This document shows, in pieces, positions 17,819 through 50,875 of a stretch of DNA of 64,000 nt; within the stretch, counting starts at the first letter, position 1; each line of letters begins with the position of its first letter. The position numbers were made by a program, and so were the translations under genes. This stretch comes from Hydrogenimonas sp. (GTDB lineage: Bacteria > Campylobacterota > Campylobacteria > Campylobacterales > Hydrogenimonadaceae). Under the pieces are notes generated by a model. That model was not told the origin of the DNA. It did no database searches and was given only the letters and a program-made list of their open reading frames with translations. Location: assembly GCA_003945285.1 (NCBI GenBank), contig AP019005.1, positions 1,812,001 to 1,876,000 of the forward strand. Direction: 5' to 3'.

Positions 17819-17995
17819 GATCCTTTACGCCGTCGGAGCAAAGCCCCGATCGGCTACGTTGACACTGGGTCCGCTTCGGCAGCGGGCCCACGCGCGGATA
17901 AACCGCGCTCTTGATCCTTTACGCCGTCGGAGCAAAGCCCCGATCGGCTACGTTGACACTGGGTCCGCTTCGGCAGCGGGCCCTCGCGCGGATAA
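17819..17995. repeat. Tandem 83-bp direct repeat (94-bp period)
   Basis: Copies at 17819-17901 and 17913-17995 differ at one base (A against T after GCGGGCCC). Each contains a GC-rich hairpin, GGGTCCGCT pairing with AGCGGGCCC around a short loop. The pair fills most of the divergent gap between the metY-like gene and bioD. Confidence 0.9.
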
Positions 17996-18030
17996 CTGCT
18001 GCATACTGCACGCTGCCGGCTGCACGCTGC
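17996..18030. repeat. Heptad array A, five NNNCTGC units
   Basis: Five consecutive seven-base units end in CTGC (ctgCTGC, ataCTGC, acgCTGC, cggCTGC, acgCTGC). The inner units are nearly identical to the reverse complement of the array at 34954-34981. It begins at the end of the second 83-bp repeat copy. Confidence 0.8.
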
Positions 18031-34953: not shown

Positions 34954-34981
34954 GCAGTCGGCAGCGTGCAGTATGCAGTAA
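34954..34981. repeat. Heptad array B, four GCAGNNN units
   Basis: Four seven-base units begin GCAG (GCAGtcg, GCAGcgt, GCAGtat, GCAGtaa), starting 15 bases after the FTR-like gene. The array is close to the reverse complement of array A at 17996. Confidence 0.8.
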
Positions 34982-35679: not shown

Positions 35680-36161
35680 AGAAGGCGCTATTTCTCGACC
35701 GGGACGGTGTGATAAACATAGACCACGGCTATGTAAGCAGAATCGAGGATTTCGAGTTCGTAGAGGGCATCCTGGATCTTGTTTACGAAGCCCAGAAGAG
35801 AGGCTACCTGCCGATAGTGGTGACAAATCAGTCCGGGATAGGGAGGGGATACTACTCTCCGGACGATTTCGAAAGGCTCACATCGTGGATGTTGGAAAAG
35901 ATGCGTGAAAGGGGCATTGTGATCGACCGTTCACATGTGCTTCACTGCCCCCACTCTCCCGATACGGGGTGCGGGTGCCGCAAACCGATGCCCGGAATGT
36001 TTCTGGAGGCCAGAGAGAGGTTCGAGATAGATATGCCGAACTCATGGATGATAGGCGACAAACCAGGCGACATAGAGGCGGCTGAAAGGGCTGGAGTCGG
36101 ACACACCTATCTGACGGAGAAGAACCGAAGAATCGATATAAAGGATCTGCATGGATTTTAA
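35676..36161 (+). CDS. gmhB: D-glycero-D-manno-heptose 1,7-bisphosphate 7-phosphatase
   Basis: GmhB removes the 7-phosphate of heptose bisphosphate in ADP-heptose synthesis. The 161-residue HAD protein starts KKALFLDRDGVINID (motif I), has VTNQSGIGRG (motif II), the Zn-binding cysteine cluster CPHSPDTGCGCRKP, and MIGDKPGDIEAA (motif IV). It overlaps hldD by 11 bases. Genes gmhB, hldD, hldE and gmhA together make the complete ADP-L-glycero-D-manno-heptose route. Confidence 0.95.
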   Translation: MKKALFLDRDGVINIDHGYVSRIEDFEFVEGILDLVYEAQKRGYLPIVVTNQSGIGRGYYSPDDFERLTSWMLEKMRERGIVIDRSHVLHCPHSPDTGCGCRKPMPGMFLEARERFEIDMPNSWMIGDKPGDIEAAERAGVGHTYLTEKNRRIDIKDLHGF

Positions 36162-37146
36162 CGGCAAAAGCATACTCATAACCGGAGGGGCCGGTTTCAT
36201 AGGCTCCAATCTGGCGCACCGTTTTCAGGAGAGTTTCCCCGGGGCCGAGGTGGTGGTTTTCGACCTATTCCGCACCGGCGAAACCTTCGACAACGGAAAC
36301 CTCAAGAGCTTCGGCCACTACAAAAACCTCAAAGGCTTCAAGGGTGAGATAATTTCCGGAGACATAACCAAAAAAGAGGATCTCGAGCGCCTCGAAGATT
36401 TCAGTTTCGACTACATATTCCACGAGGCGGCGATAAGCGACACCACGGTTTACGACCAGAAGATAATGATAGATACCAACCTGAACGCCTTCAAGGATCT
36501 TCTGAAGATGGCGAAAAAGATGGATGCGGCGATAATCTACGCAAGCTCCGGCGCCACATACGGAAACGCACCCGCACCGCAGACGGTCGGGCGTGAAGAC
36601 CCGGCGAACATCTACGGTTTCAGCAAGCTCGCCATGGACAACCTCGCCTACGAGTGGATGAAAAAGAGCGACCTGCCGATAGTGGGACTCCGCTACTTCA
36701 ACGTCTACGGCCCGAGGGAGTTTTTCAAAAACAGAACCGCCTCGATGGTACTGCAGTTCGGCCACCAGATACTCGCCGGCAAAAACCCCAAACTCTTCGA
36801 AGGCTCCGACACGATTCTTCGCGACTTCATATACATAGACGACGTAATACAGGCAAACATAAAAGCGTGCAACCCAAAAAGAAGCGGCGTCTACAACGTA
36901 GGAACCGGAAAAGCGAGAAGCTTCCAGGATATCGTCGACATACTCCAAAAAGAGCTCGGCACTAGTCTGGAGTGCGAATATATTCCCAACCCCTACATAG
37001 GGCAGTACCAGTTCTTCACCCAGGCGGACATAGAGCCGACGAGAGAGTTTTTGGGGTATGAGCCCGAAGTGACGCTCGAAGAGGGAATCCGGCGGTATGT
37101 TCCGGAGATTGTTCGGCTTTTCAAGGAAGAAGTCGATGGTCGATAG
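36151..37146 (+). CDS. hldD: ADP-L-glycero-D-manno-heptose 6-epimerase
   Basis: This 331-residue extended SDR enzyme inverts C6 of ADP-heptose to give the sugar used by WaaC and WaaF. It has the Rossmann loop ITGGAGFIGSN, the catalytic serine segment ASSGATYG, and YGFSK with the catalytic Tyr-Lys pair. It ends VDGR; the last codons and stop (TAG) lie inside the left inverted repeat of the S23 cassette, so the repeat has supplied the C-terminus. Confidence 0.95.
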   Translation: MDFNGKSILITGGAGFIGSNLAHRFQESFPGAEVVVFDLFRTGETFDNGNLKSFGHYKNLKGFKGEIISGDITKKEDLERLEDFSFDYIFHEAAISDTTVYDQKIMIDTNLNAFKDLLKMAKKMDAAIIYASSGATYGNAPAPQTVGREDPANIYGFSKLAMDNLAYEWMKKSDLPIVGLRYFNVYGPREFFKNRTASMVLQFGHQILAGKNPKLFEGSDTILRDFIYIDDVIQANIKACNPKRSGVYNVGTGKARSFQDIVDILQKELGTSLECEYIPNPYIGQYQFFTQADIEPTREFLGYEPEVTLEEGIRRYVPEIVRLFKEEVDGR

Positions 37147-37166
37147 TCGATGGTCGATAGTGAATG
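37132..37166 (+). repeat. Left inverted repeat (heptad array C)
   Basis: Units GTCGATG and GTCGATA alternate twice, followed by GTGAATG. The hldD stop codon lies in it. Confidence 0.9.
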
Positions 37167-37179
37167 AGAGGGTGGTGCT

Positions 37180-37548
37180 GTGAAGTGTGAAAATATGGAT
37201 GTTTGGAAAAAATCTGCGTCTGTGAGTTCCGAAATATATTTACAACTTAGAGAGTTCAAAGATTTCAGTTTCAAAGATCAGTTAACCCGTTCCGGTTTGT
37301 CTGTTCCGAGCAATATAGCAGAGTGGTTGGAGAGAAAATCCGAACAGGAGAAGATCCGTTTTTTGGATATTGCAAGAGCTTCCATAGCTGAAGCCAAAAC
37401 CCAAATCTATATTGGCATGAAAATAGACTATATTCCGGTAGAAAAAGGTAAAAGCTGGATAGCGGAATATGAAAGTATCGGAAAAATGCTTACTGCGTTG
37501 ATAAACAGTATCCAGAACAGAAGTGCGGAGAAAACCGATGACCATTGA
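37180..37548 (+). CDS. Four-helix-bundle protein, S23/IVS family
   Basis: This 122-residue all-helical protein shows the family features MDVWKKSASVSSEIY, the loop SGLSVPSNIAEWLERKSEQEKIRFLDIARASIAEAKTQ, and GKMLTALINSI. Such proteins are found inside 23S rRNA intervening sequences, as stand-alone genes, and as the related Avd of diversity-generating retroelements. It starts at GTG 37180 with GAGGG upstream; ATG 37195 is an alternative. Its stop (TGA 37546-37548) lies in the right inverted repeat. Function is unknown. Confidence 0.88.
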   Translation: MKCENMDVWKKSASVSSEIYLQLREFKDFSFKDQLTRSGLSVPSNIAEWLERKSEQEKIRFLDIARASIAEAKTQIYIGMKIDYIPVEKGKSWIAEYESIGKMLTALINSIQNRSAEKTDDH

Positions 37549-37584
37549 CTATCGACCATCGACTATCGACCATCGACCATCGAC
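37543..37584 (-). repeat. Right inverted repeat (heptad array D)
   Basis: CATTGAC is followed by five units of (T/C)ATCGAC, the reverse complement of array C plus one extra unit. It overlaps the S23 stop codon and extends an open frame upstream of hldE. Confidence 0.9.
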
Positions 37585-37604
37585 CCGCAGCCAAAGGCGG
37601 GAAA

Positions 37605-39038
37605 ATGCGTAAATACCAAACCCTAAAACCTTCGGTGCTGGTCATCGGAGACCTGATGATAGACCATTATCTGTGGGGAAAGACGGAGCGTATCTCCCCG
37701 GAGGCGCCTGTACCGGTCATAGATGTACAAAACGAGAGCGAGGTGCTAGGCGGTGCGGGCAATGTCGTAAACAACCTCGTGGCGCTCGGTGCGGATGTCA
37801 GTGTCGCCTCAGTTATAGGTATGGATGAGAACGGAAAGCGGCTTGCGAAGATGCTTGAAGAGCTCGGCGTCGGCAGCGATACACTGGTTTTGGAGCGGGG
37901 AAGAAGGACTACGAGGAAGAGCCGGGTTATTGCTTCGCATCAGCAGGTGATCCGCTTCGACAGCGAGAGTAGACAGGAGATAGGCAAAGAGAGCGAAGAG
38001 AAGATACTATCCCTTGTCCGAAGCAGGCTGCCCGAAACGGATATAATTCTGCTCTCCGACTACGGCAAGGGTGTCCTGAGCGACTCCCTGACGCGTCGGA
38101 TAATCGGCATGGCGAGAGACGGAGGGGTCAAGGTGCTGGTAGACCCCAAAGGGAGAGACTACTCCAAGTACGAGGGTGCGACACTGGTGACTCCCAACAA
38201 GAAGGAGGCGAGCGAAGCGACCGGCATAGCCATCGTCGACAAAGATTCTCTTAGAGAGGCCGGCTTCAGGCTCAAAAACGGACTCGGACTGGATATGGCT
38301 ATGATAACCCTCTCCGAGGAGGGGATGGCGATATTCGACGAGACGATGAGGAGCATCCCGACGGTGGCCAGAGAGGTCTACGACGTAACGGGGGCGGGAG
38401 ATACGGTGCTCTCCACACTCGGCTTCGTCCTGGGTGCCGGAGGCGACATCGACGAAGCGGCACGAATAGCCAACGCGGCGGCGGCCGTAGTGGTGGGCAA
38501 GCTGGGCAGCGCCACCGCTACATGGGATGAGATAATAGCCTACGAGACGACCCTGCACGACTCTACGACGGAGCACCGCATAAAAGATAAAAAAGAGCTC
38601 GAAGAGAGTGTCGAAAGGCTCAAAAACGAAGGTAAACGCATAGTTTTCACAAACGGATGTTTCGATATACTTCACCTCGGACATGTGAAGTATCTGGAGA
38701 AGGCCAAAAGCTTCGGGGACGTTCTGATAGTCGGGGTCAACTCCGACGCTTCGGTAAAACGCCTCAAGGGTGAGAGCCGTCCGGTCAACCCTCAATTCGA
38801 CAGGGCCTATCTTCTTGCGGCGCTGGATGCCGTCGATTTCGTCACGATTTTCGACGAAGATACCCCCTACGACCTCATAAAGGCGGTCAGGCCGGATGTG
38901 CTGGTAAAAGGCGGGGACTACGAAGGCAAAGAGGTGGTCGGCAGCGATATTGCGAAAGAGGTCAGGCTGGTCGACTTTGTAGATGGAAAAAGTACTACCG
39001 GGATTATAGAAAATATCAACAAAAAGGGGAAACAGTGA
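37605..39038 (+). CDS. hldE: Bifunctional heptose 7-phosphate kinase / heptose 1-phosphate adenylyltransferase
   Basis: The 477-residue fusion phosphorylates D-glycero-D-manno-heptose 7-phosphate, and later adenylates heptose 1-phosphate. It has an N-terminal ribokinase-like domain (LVIGDLMIDHYLWG, GGAGNVVNNL, DVTGAGDTV with the catalytic Asp) and a C-terminal cytidylyltransferase-type domain with TNGCFDILHLGHVKYL. ATG 37605 has AAGGCGGG upstream. The open frame continues back to 37545, but that part is heptad repeat (TIDHRLSTIDHRP) and probably not translated. Confidence 0.94.
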   Translation: MRKYQTLKPSVLVIGDLMIDHYLWGKTERISPEAPVPVIDVQNESEVLGGAGNVVNNLVALGADVSVASVIGMDENGKRLAKMLEELGVGSDTLVLERGRRTTRKSRVIASHQQVIRFDSESRQEIGKESEEKILSLVRSRLPETDIILLSDYGKGVLSDSLTRRIIGMARDGGVKVLVDPKGRDYSKYEGATLVTPNKKEASEATGIAIVDKDSLREAGFRLKNGLGLDMAMITLSEEGMAIFDETMRSIPTVAREVYDVTGAGDTVLSTLGFVLGAGGDIDEAARIANAAAAVVVGKLGSATATWDEIIAYETTLHDSTTEHRIKDKKELEESVERLKNEGKRIVFTNGCFDILHLGHVKYLEKAKSFGDVLIVGVNSDASVKRLKGESRPVNPQFDRAYLLAALDAVDFVTIFDEDTPYDLIKAVRPDVLVKGGDYEGKEVVGSDIAKEVRLVDFVDGKSTTGIIENINKKGKQ

Positions 39039-40299: not shown

Positions 40300-41277
40300 T
40301 CACATACTTTCCAAAAGGCGATTCGCCGCCTCTGTGACTTCCGAAGCCTCTATACCTTTCATGCACTCGTGTGTCTTTATGGGACATGTACGCTTCATGC
40401 AGGGAGCGCACTCGAGATCATGTCTGACTATTACACTCTTTTGGTTCATCCACTGGCAGGTCTCTTTGTGTCTGGTGGGGCCGAAAACGGCTACGGTCGG
40501 GACCGAGTAGGCGGCGGCTATATGCATCGGGCCGCTGTCTCCTGTGATGAATAGATCGAGTCCGCCTATGAGCGAGCAGAGCTCGGGAATTGTGGTTTCG
40601 CCCGCTATGTTTTTGACCTTTTCAACACCCTTTTCATGTACCGCTCTCTCGATATCCGCCGCTATCTTCCTCTCTCCCGGCCCTCCGAAGATTAGTATGT
40701 CGAACCTGTCGGAAAGCTCTGCGGCGACTTCTGCGAACTTTTCGGGATACCAACGTTTTGCGCTGCCGTATGTCGCGCCCGGGTTAATGCCGAGTGTCTG
40801 TCTCTCGAAGCTCTTTGCCGGCCAGTAGAGCTTGAGCGGTCCGGGGAGGTCGTTTCGGCCTGTTATGCCGTTTATGAAGGATTGGTAGCGTTGGACTTGG
40901 TGGGCGGCGCTTTGCGCCGAGTCGATGGTCGATAGTCGATGGTCGATGGAGGTTTTTTTGTAGATATATCTTTTCGGTGTGCCGGTGAGCAGAAGGAGAA
41001 GTTTTGAATAGAAGTGGCTGCGGAAGCTTAGTGCTAGATCGTGCTTTTGCAGCTCTTTTGAGAGGCGGTAGATGTTGAGCGGGCGGAAGCCGCCGGATTT
41101 TGTCTTGTCTATAACTACGCGATTTATGCGAGGGTGTACCTTTAGCGCCTCCGTTGAGACGTATGAGCCTACTATCGTGATTTCGGCCTCCGGGTAGGCT
41201 GCGAAGAGGTTTTCCAGTGCTGGTGTGGCCATGACGGCGTCGCCCAGCCATGTGGGAAGCTCTATGAGTATCTTCAT
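40300..41277 (-). CDS. waaF: ADP-heptose:LPS heptosyltransferase II-like
   Basis: This 325-residue GT9 glycosyltransferase probably adds the second heptose to the core. It has LPTWLGDAVMATPAL at the N-terminus, LGINPGATYGSAKRWYPEKF in the middle, and the donor-binding GDSGPMHIAAAYSVPTVAVFGPT. The start is ATG 41277, overlapping the upstream GT2 stop as ATGA; the longer open frame to 41418 is rejected. Residues 110-119 (SIDHRLSTID) are encoded by a heptad array in frame in a loop region. The C-terminal CAPCMKRTC cluster is family-typical. Confidence 0.88.
   Translation of the reverse strand: MKILIELPTWLGDAVMATPALENLFAAYPEAEITIVGSYVSTEALKVHPRINRVVIDKTKSGGFRPLNIYRLSKELQKHDLALSFRSHFYSKLLLLLTGTPKRYIYKKTSIDHRLSTIDSAQSAAHQVQRYQSFINGITGRNDLPGPLKLYWPAKSFERQTLGINPGATYGSAKRWYPEKFAEVAAELSDRFDILIFGGPGERKIAADIERAVHEKGVEKVKNIAGETTIPELCSLIGGLDLFITGDSGPMHIAAAYSVPTVAVFGPTRHKETCQWMNQKSVIVRHDLECAPCMKRTCPIKTHECMKGIEASEVTEAANRLLESM
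40921..40948. repeat. Heptad array E inside waaF
   Basis: Four GTCGATN units with N = G, A, G, G. The same unit forms the inverted repeats of the cassette at 37132. Here it is solo and in frame. Confidence 0.9.
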
Positions 41278-50247: not shown

Positions 50248-50760
50248 CTACTGCCTTTCACACTCCTTGAGTGTTATATCTTTAGCGTCACCCTCGCCGC
50301 CCTCTTTTCCGTCAGCGCCCAGACTAATGAGCTCTATTTCGCCTCCGTTGTTGATATATATATACCTGTGCTTCCACGGATCCTTCGGCAGATGCCTGCT
50401 CTCGAGGTATCCTGTGGGGGAGTAGTTGGTATACTTCTCCGGGTCGGGATTTTTCAAAAGAGCCTCGAGCCCCTCTTCGGTAGTCGGGTAGATACCGTTG
50501 TCGAACTTGAACGACTTGAGCGCCTCTTCGATATTTTTCATCTGTATGCAGACAAGTTTACGCTTCGCACTCTCGGCTTTGCCGATGAGATTCGGCAGAA
50601 CCAGCGCACTCAAAAGACCGAGAATTATGATGACGATCATCAACTCGAGAAGCGAAAAGGCTTTACGGGTTTTATAGTGGGTAGTGGGTAGTGGGTAGCT
50701 TGCAGATTTGTTTGAGTTTGTAGCCTGCAGTCTGCAGTTTGCAGAAATTTTTTGGGTCAT
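50248..50760 (-). CDS. gspG: Type II secretion major pseudopilin GspG with an extended leader
   Basis: GspG is the main subunit of the pseudopilus. Its mature part (about 136 residues) starts FSLLELMIVIIILGLLSALVLPNL and has the Ca-site region and GEIELISLGADGKEGG near the C-terminus. The leader is 34 residues, much longer than usual, and residues 6-29 are encoded by heptad repeats. ATG 50760 has AAAGGA five bases upstream, and no other good start lies closer to the cleavage site (KTRKA|F). The cut follows alanine, as in the other pseudopilins here. Confidence 0.88.
   Translation of the reverse strand: MTQKISANCRLQATNSNKSASYPLPTTHYKTRKAFSLLELMIVIIILGLLSALVLPNLIGKAESAKRKLVCIQMKNIEEALKSFKFDNGIYPTTEEGLEALLKNPDPEKYTNYSPTGYLESRHLPKDPWKHRYIYINNGGEIELISLGADGKEGGEGDAKDITLKECERQ
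50674..50745. repeat. Heptad array F inside the gspG leader
   Basis: Three units of (A/G)TAGTGG (50674-50694) run into GTAGCTT and GCAGATT, then after 11 bases GTAGCCT, GCAGTCT, GCAGTTT and GCAG (50720-50744). It lies in frame in the gspG leader. Confidence 0.8.
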
Positions 50761-50840: not shown

Positions 50841-50875
50841 ACTCCCCACTTCTCACTCCCCACTTCCCACTCAAC
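50841..50875. repeat. Heptad array G at the gspF stop
   Basis: Five units start ACT (ACTcccc, ACTtctc, ACTcccc, ACTtccc, ACTcaac). The gspF stop codon lies within the last unit. The units match the (A/G)TAGTGG part of array F in inverted orientation. Confidence 0.8.

Follow-up and report, generated by a model that had tools for sequence, protein, structure and literature searches.

Within the window, the stretch of 64,000 nucleotides of Hydrogenimonas sp. contig AP019005.1 analysed here, the genes hldD and hldE are separated by an insert of ~450 bp that carries a gene for a four-helix-bundle protein of the S23 family (Table 1). The gene lies between inverted arms of 35 nt (37132-37166 and 37543-37577), which are 376 nt apart, pair at 34 of 35 positions (97% complementarity) and are both arrays of GTCGAT(A/G) heptads, the right array being longer than the left and having more than five units. 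Allowing one mismatch at most, GTCGATNGTCGAT was matched 11 times in the window against an expectation of 0.48, and the inverted-repeat score of the insert was 32.5, whereas the highest score among the 635 control windows from the wide set of S23 loci described below was 16. The layout reported in the original prediction was confirmed, including the provision of stop codons by the repeats: TAG at 37144-37146 in the left array ends hldD, and TGA at 37546-37548 in the right array ends the S23 gene. The interior of the insert was also found to be more AT-rich than its neighbours, as had been stated, with a GC content of 39.6% vs 52.0% for hldD and 54.9% for hldE. Folded as RNA, the whole unit was far more stable than shuffles (z=-7.8), and its terminal inverted repeats can form a stem in the manner of the intervening sequences (IVS) of rRNA genes; its position, in contrast, is a junction of protein-coding genes and not a 23S or 16S rRNA gene. 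By comparison with relatives, hldE most likely starts at the ATG placed outside the array. At four hldD-hldE loci (L042, L112, L130 and L049), the 3' array and hldE are separated by a small hairpin in which a ribosome-binding site may lie, the sequences differing by species. A third GTCGAT array of the window (40921-40949) falls within waaF, the gene for heptosyltransferase II, where it is in frame and reads SIDHRLSTID on the minus strand.

Table 1 Features of the hldD-hldE insert and its surroundings (window coordinates, except where a locus is named)
Feature	Coordinates	Strand	Basis or remark
hldD, ADP-heptose 6-epimerase	36151..37146	+	TIGR02197, 343 bits; ORF
5' arm, five GT cores at spacing 7 (GT-CGATG-GT-CGATA-GT-CGATG-GT-CGATA-GT), 30 nt	37132..37161	+	Complementarity extends to 37166
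S23 / 23S_rRNA_IVP four-helix-bundle gene, 122 aa	37180..37548	+	PF05635, 100 bits; NF008912, 152 bits; GTG start as called, putative
3' arm, inverted GTCGATN array, ~six units, holds S23 stop codon	37539..37585	-	Inverted repeat of the 5' arm
Short segment from 3' array to hldE, candidate ribosome-binding site in small hairpin	37586..37604	+	Sequence; putative function
hldE, bifunctional heptose kinase/adenylyltransferase, ATG 37605	37605..39038	+	NF008454, 502 bits; start by comparison with relatives
rRNA-operon heptad hairpins	L034 2612-2843, 6067-6143; L040 2216-2303, 5440-5840		At gene junctions

The S23 ORF matched PF05635 with 100.1 bits (cut-off 33.8) over positions 1-105 of 106, which assigns it to the family, and its AlphaFold model displayed the four helices of a four-helix bundle at a pLDDT of 94.8. 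The best structural neighbours of the model were 2gsc (TM 0.84) and 2rld, followed by the Avd structure 4dwl; the NCBIfam Avd model, on the other hand, gave 19.6 bits on S23, far under its 80-bit cut-off. By analogy with 2gsc and 2rld, crystal entries that hold five chains each and that suggest a pentamer for S23, the protein encoded at hldD-hldE probably forms a ring.

Comparison of the same junction in related genomes revealed all manner of occupancy. Within the genus, hldD and hldE were tightly joined with no insert in G009, G006 and G011, providing the empty sites that the original prediction had proposed to look for. In G015 there were heptads alone, in G017 a GTCGAT inverted pair enclosed a decayed interior, and in G005 GGTTTTA arms accompanied a deleted S23 gene. 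A full S23 gene occupied the junction in five genomes, with arms made of GTCGATN in G000, GGTGAGAN (period 8) in G002, GTCGTTN in G007 and G016, and a GTCGAT/GTCGTT mixture in G010. Presence was equally sporadic, as is the case of rRNA IVS, at cysD-cysN: the two genes overlap at TAATG with no insert in G002, G015 and the second copy of G000, an array stands alone in G009 and in the second copy of G005, and the remaining genomes carry S23 with several differing arm sequences. A single clade for the S23 proteins of hldD-hldE was rejected (p-AU 0.0003), and the S23 of the window grouped inside those adjoining cysD, one of which (L080) also has GTCGAT arms. Since the hldD-hldE proteins do not form one clade and that of the window is nested among cysD-adjoining ones, this junction was taken on more than one occasion, one move from cysD to hldD-hldE being likely. 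The claim that the cassette is an inserted unit was thereby supported, both junctions being polymorphic and the S23 proteins at hldD-hldE not one clade; the outcome that had been set against it, namely a cassette fixed in all relatives and no heptad ends near other S23 genes, was not what we observed. The genomes compared are of different species, and the sites have thus been shaped by losses as well as by gains; no movement was observed among them, and no target-site duplication was seen relative to empty hldD-hldE sites, which are those of other species.

The genome itself, a single contig of 2.19 Mb, harbors three S23 genes, all of which lie between same-strand genes and are flanked by inverted period-7 arms. 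The check for other S23 genes with the heptad ends of the hldD-hldE insert, as advised in the original prediction, showed inverted heptad arms at all three, with letters that differ each time: GTCGATN at hldD-hldE, GCAGNNT at cysD-cysN and AATTAAA next to hypB. Arrays devoid of S23 are common. A census by pattern searches, wherein overlaps within an array were counted separately, returned 52 matches for GTCGATN (1 for the reversed control), 29 for GCAGNNT (0 for the control) and 35 for AGTGNGN (1 for the control). Across the genomes searched, GTCGATN was nearly private to this one, with 40 matches vs 0-5 in the others. Both rRNA operons contain GTCGATN hairpins without S23 at the 16S|tRNA-Ile, tRNA-Ile|tRNA-Ala and 23S|5S junctions, and the tRNA-Ala|23S junction bears one of AGTGAGG type; no heptad hairpin was present in the 16S-23S spacer of G007. 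Several other arrays were noted. In the window, an AGTGGG-type inverted pair (50675-50698 and 50841-50871, ~145 bp apart) lies without S23 among type II secretion-like genes and encloses a GCAG-type array (50719-50744); further GCAG-type arrays are found at 34954-34978 and at 17999-18030, the latter after a 94-bp repeat in almost two copies (17819-17995). Elsewhere, a 61-nt GTCGAT/GTCAAT array (L041 2585-2645; G000:C1:1932584-1932644) lies in a CRISPR array, where it seems to form all or part of an overlong spacer, and an AGTGGGT array of ~20 units adjoins a GCAGTTT array in an unusually big double heptad tract (G000:C1:1367650-1367858).

The same architecture was found well beyond this genus. 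In a wide set of 79 S23 loci, which represent at least 15 phyla as counted by record titles, the upstream and downstream flanks formed an inverted repeat with an arm score of 14 or more at 55 loci, control windows from the same loci having a 99th percentile of 12.5 and a top score of 16. For the combined set, a lag of 7 was best in 102/133 upstream and 107/133 downstream flanks, vs 113/1058 background windows, and S23 loci from viral contigs, an independent draw, showed the same kind of arms. Of 136 loci, 110 had the S23 gene in sense between two co-directional genes, and two had it antisense to both neighbours. The two arms of one locus agreed at six or more of the seven unit positions in 59/70 cases, as opposed to 3.8% between loci, and loci with more similar S23 proteins had more similar unit letters (Mantel r=0.33, p=0.001). 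The 5' arms contain little C (9%) and much G (29%), and stop-codon triplets are only slightly enriched in them. Host junctions, the gene names of which were assigned from Pfam domains, include sdhA-sdhB, gmd-fcl, pdhB-pdhC, fadB-fadA, rho-murI, tpiA-fabI and pairs of ABC-transporter genes; the gmd-fcl junction holds S23 in four phyla (L089, L193, L198 and L209), which may reflect repeated insertion or operon transfer. None of the 20 loci with odd flanks had S23 inside an rRNA gene. Inserts of this build, originally proposed to have targets beyond rRNA, occupy operon junctions in many phyla; they are special neither to this genome nor to the GTCGATN letters, one of many arm sequences. The sense bias fits with insertion on or near a transcript as well as with selection for promoterless S23 expression, two explanations that the data do not separate.

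Although arrays ranged from 18 to 180 nt and the right arm at hldD-hldE exceeds five units, arm length peaked sharply at 30-32 nt, as five cores of 2-4 nt repeated every 7 nt would give; in simulations, four and five full heptads came to 28 and 35 nt. Among interior copies of 30-32-nt arms, phases occurring five times were conserved at 0.90 vs 0.76 for those occurring four times (p=9e-11), and arms of period 8 had a median length of 35 nt (n=20), as expected of five cores set 8 nt apart. L100, L103 and L105, which have arms of this period, fall within a single S23 clade. The arms are therefore best read, from their sequences, as five conserved cores at spacing 7. Given the five chains in each entry of the solved S23 relatives, we propose that the five cores of an arm are read by a pentamer of S23, with one subunit per core.

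The nearest described counterpart is the IVS of the Coxiella burnetii 23S rRNA gene, an element of 428 nt with an S23 ORF, heptameric repeats (GACAGAT) just before the S23 start and an RNase III cut at the first of these repeats (PMC4990558). Our comparison with rRNA IVS is based on this paper, the heptamers of which strengthen the kinship between the insert and rRNA IVS that had been suggested from the outset. The two elements share the S23 ORF, a similar size, terminal inverted repeats (stem of ~28-35 bp) and heptamers before S23. The hldD-hldE unit differs in occupying a junction in a protein operon rather than a 23S helix and in its heptad letters; cutting of this unit by RNase III is predicted from the likeness. 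The S23 protein of Coxiella is apparently not made in vivo (PMC4990558), and the protein may thus be dispensable in rRNA copies. Heptamer direct repeats, TAACTGA among them, are known from Beggiatoaceae, Cyanobacteria and Bacteroidetes (MacGregor 2015, PMC4679880) and resemble the present arrays in being tandem, intergenic and spread over unrelated phyla; however, they are described mainly as direct copies of a single sequence, and the paper ties them neither to S23, which it does not mention, nor to inverted arms. In the open-access literature searched, the Coxiella paper was the only one to join S23 and heptamers. Thus, S23 IVS with inverted ends were already known, as were heptamers in one rRNA IVS and, without S23, elsewhere (PMC4679880), while nothing was found there on the operon-junction branch, on the tie between variable heptads and S23 in different phyla, or on the rules for orientation and five cores. 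A ring that reads repeats has a precedent of another kind. The TRAP ring binds spaced (G/U)AG repeats; the S23 fold is unrelated to it, and the likeness would be confined to the proposed logic, in which each subunit of a ring takes one of a series of short, regularly spaced repeats.

Because the site is polymorphic and hosts several S23 lineages, because insertion is in sense and because the same build recurs in many phyla, we consider the hldD-hldE unit to be an inserted, IVS-like element, the operon-junction branch of the S23 IVS kind, with a probability of about 0.6. The unit consists of a 5' five-core array, the S23 gene and, on the 3' side, the reverse complement of the 5' array, and is set in sense in an operon. 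In the operon mRNA, the arms would most likely pair into a stem of ~30 bp which, by analogy with rRNA IVS, RNase III could cut, and the cut would be as harmless at a gene-gene junction as it is in an rRNA helix. S23 would be translated from the host transcript and its pentamer would bind one arm, one subunit per core, the five cores being at spacing 7 or 8. More tentatively, S23 proteins at large may be pentameric rings that read five cores (spacing 7/8) of lineage-specific letters and that belong to a bacteria-wide family of sense units colonising places where RNA can be cut (rRNA helices, rRNA spacers and operon junctions) and spreading while encoding neither a classical transposase nor a reverse transcriptase.

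Three other explanations were weighed. The unit could be a MITE-like DNA element, the arms of which are recognised in trans by an unrelated transposase, such as one of the RAYT-type Y1 kind, with S23 as cargo or regulator; this would account for the inverted ends and for the many gene-less copies of the arms, and the genome does encode one RAYT-like Y1_Tnp, which showed no link to the arms. However, the complete genome G016 has two S23 genes and zero Y1_Tnp, arm letters go with the S23 protein clade, and a strong sense bias is unexpected of a plain DNA transposon, making such an element rather unlikely. We also regard as unlikely an RNA-level retroelement in which S23, like its relative Avd, partners a reverse transcriptase in trans. 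No match to RVT_1 (PF00078) was found in this complete genome or in G016 and G040, two other complete genomes with S23, and the enzyme is thus not needed for the unit to be present, although a past or divergent reverse transcriptase could have served. In favor of a retroelement are insertion in sense and the kinship of fold with Avd and the complex of diversity-generating retroelements (4dwl, 8ube), Avd being likewise a four-helix bundle (TM ~0.75) in a multi-chain assembly; identity to Avd is nonetheless only 12-15%, and with neither PF00078 in the genome nor an Avd score above the cut-off, the unit does not qualify as a diversity-generating retroelement. Finally, a fixed operon gene beside microsatellites made by slippage, where nothing moves, would agree with the existence of heptad arrays without S23 and with the proposal of heptamers as translational regulators elsewhere (PMC4679880), but is very improbable given the empty sites, the several S23 clades at one junction, the complementary arms that flank the gene in many phyla and the inability of slippage to yield inverted partners that change letters in step.

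In very many genomes, S23 genes carry the functionless label 'four helix bundle protein' or '23S rRNA IVP', and published heptamer repeats have been left without an explanation. An inserted, IVS-like unit ties the two together, with ends, an orientation rule and a target rule, namely co-transcribed gene junctions. It also offers a testable recognition code of five cores, spacing 7 or 8 and five subunits, whereby the role of the rRNA IVS protein, a long-standing question, would become directly testable.
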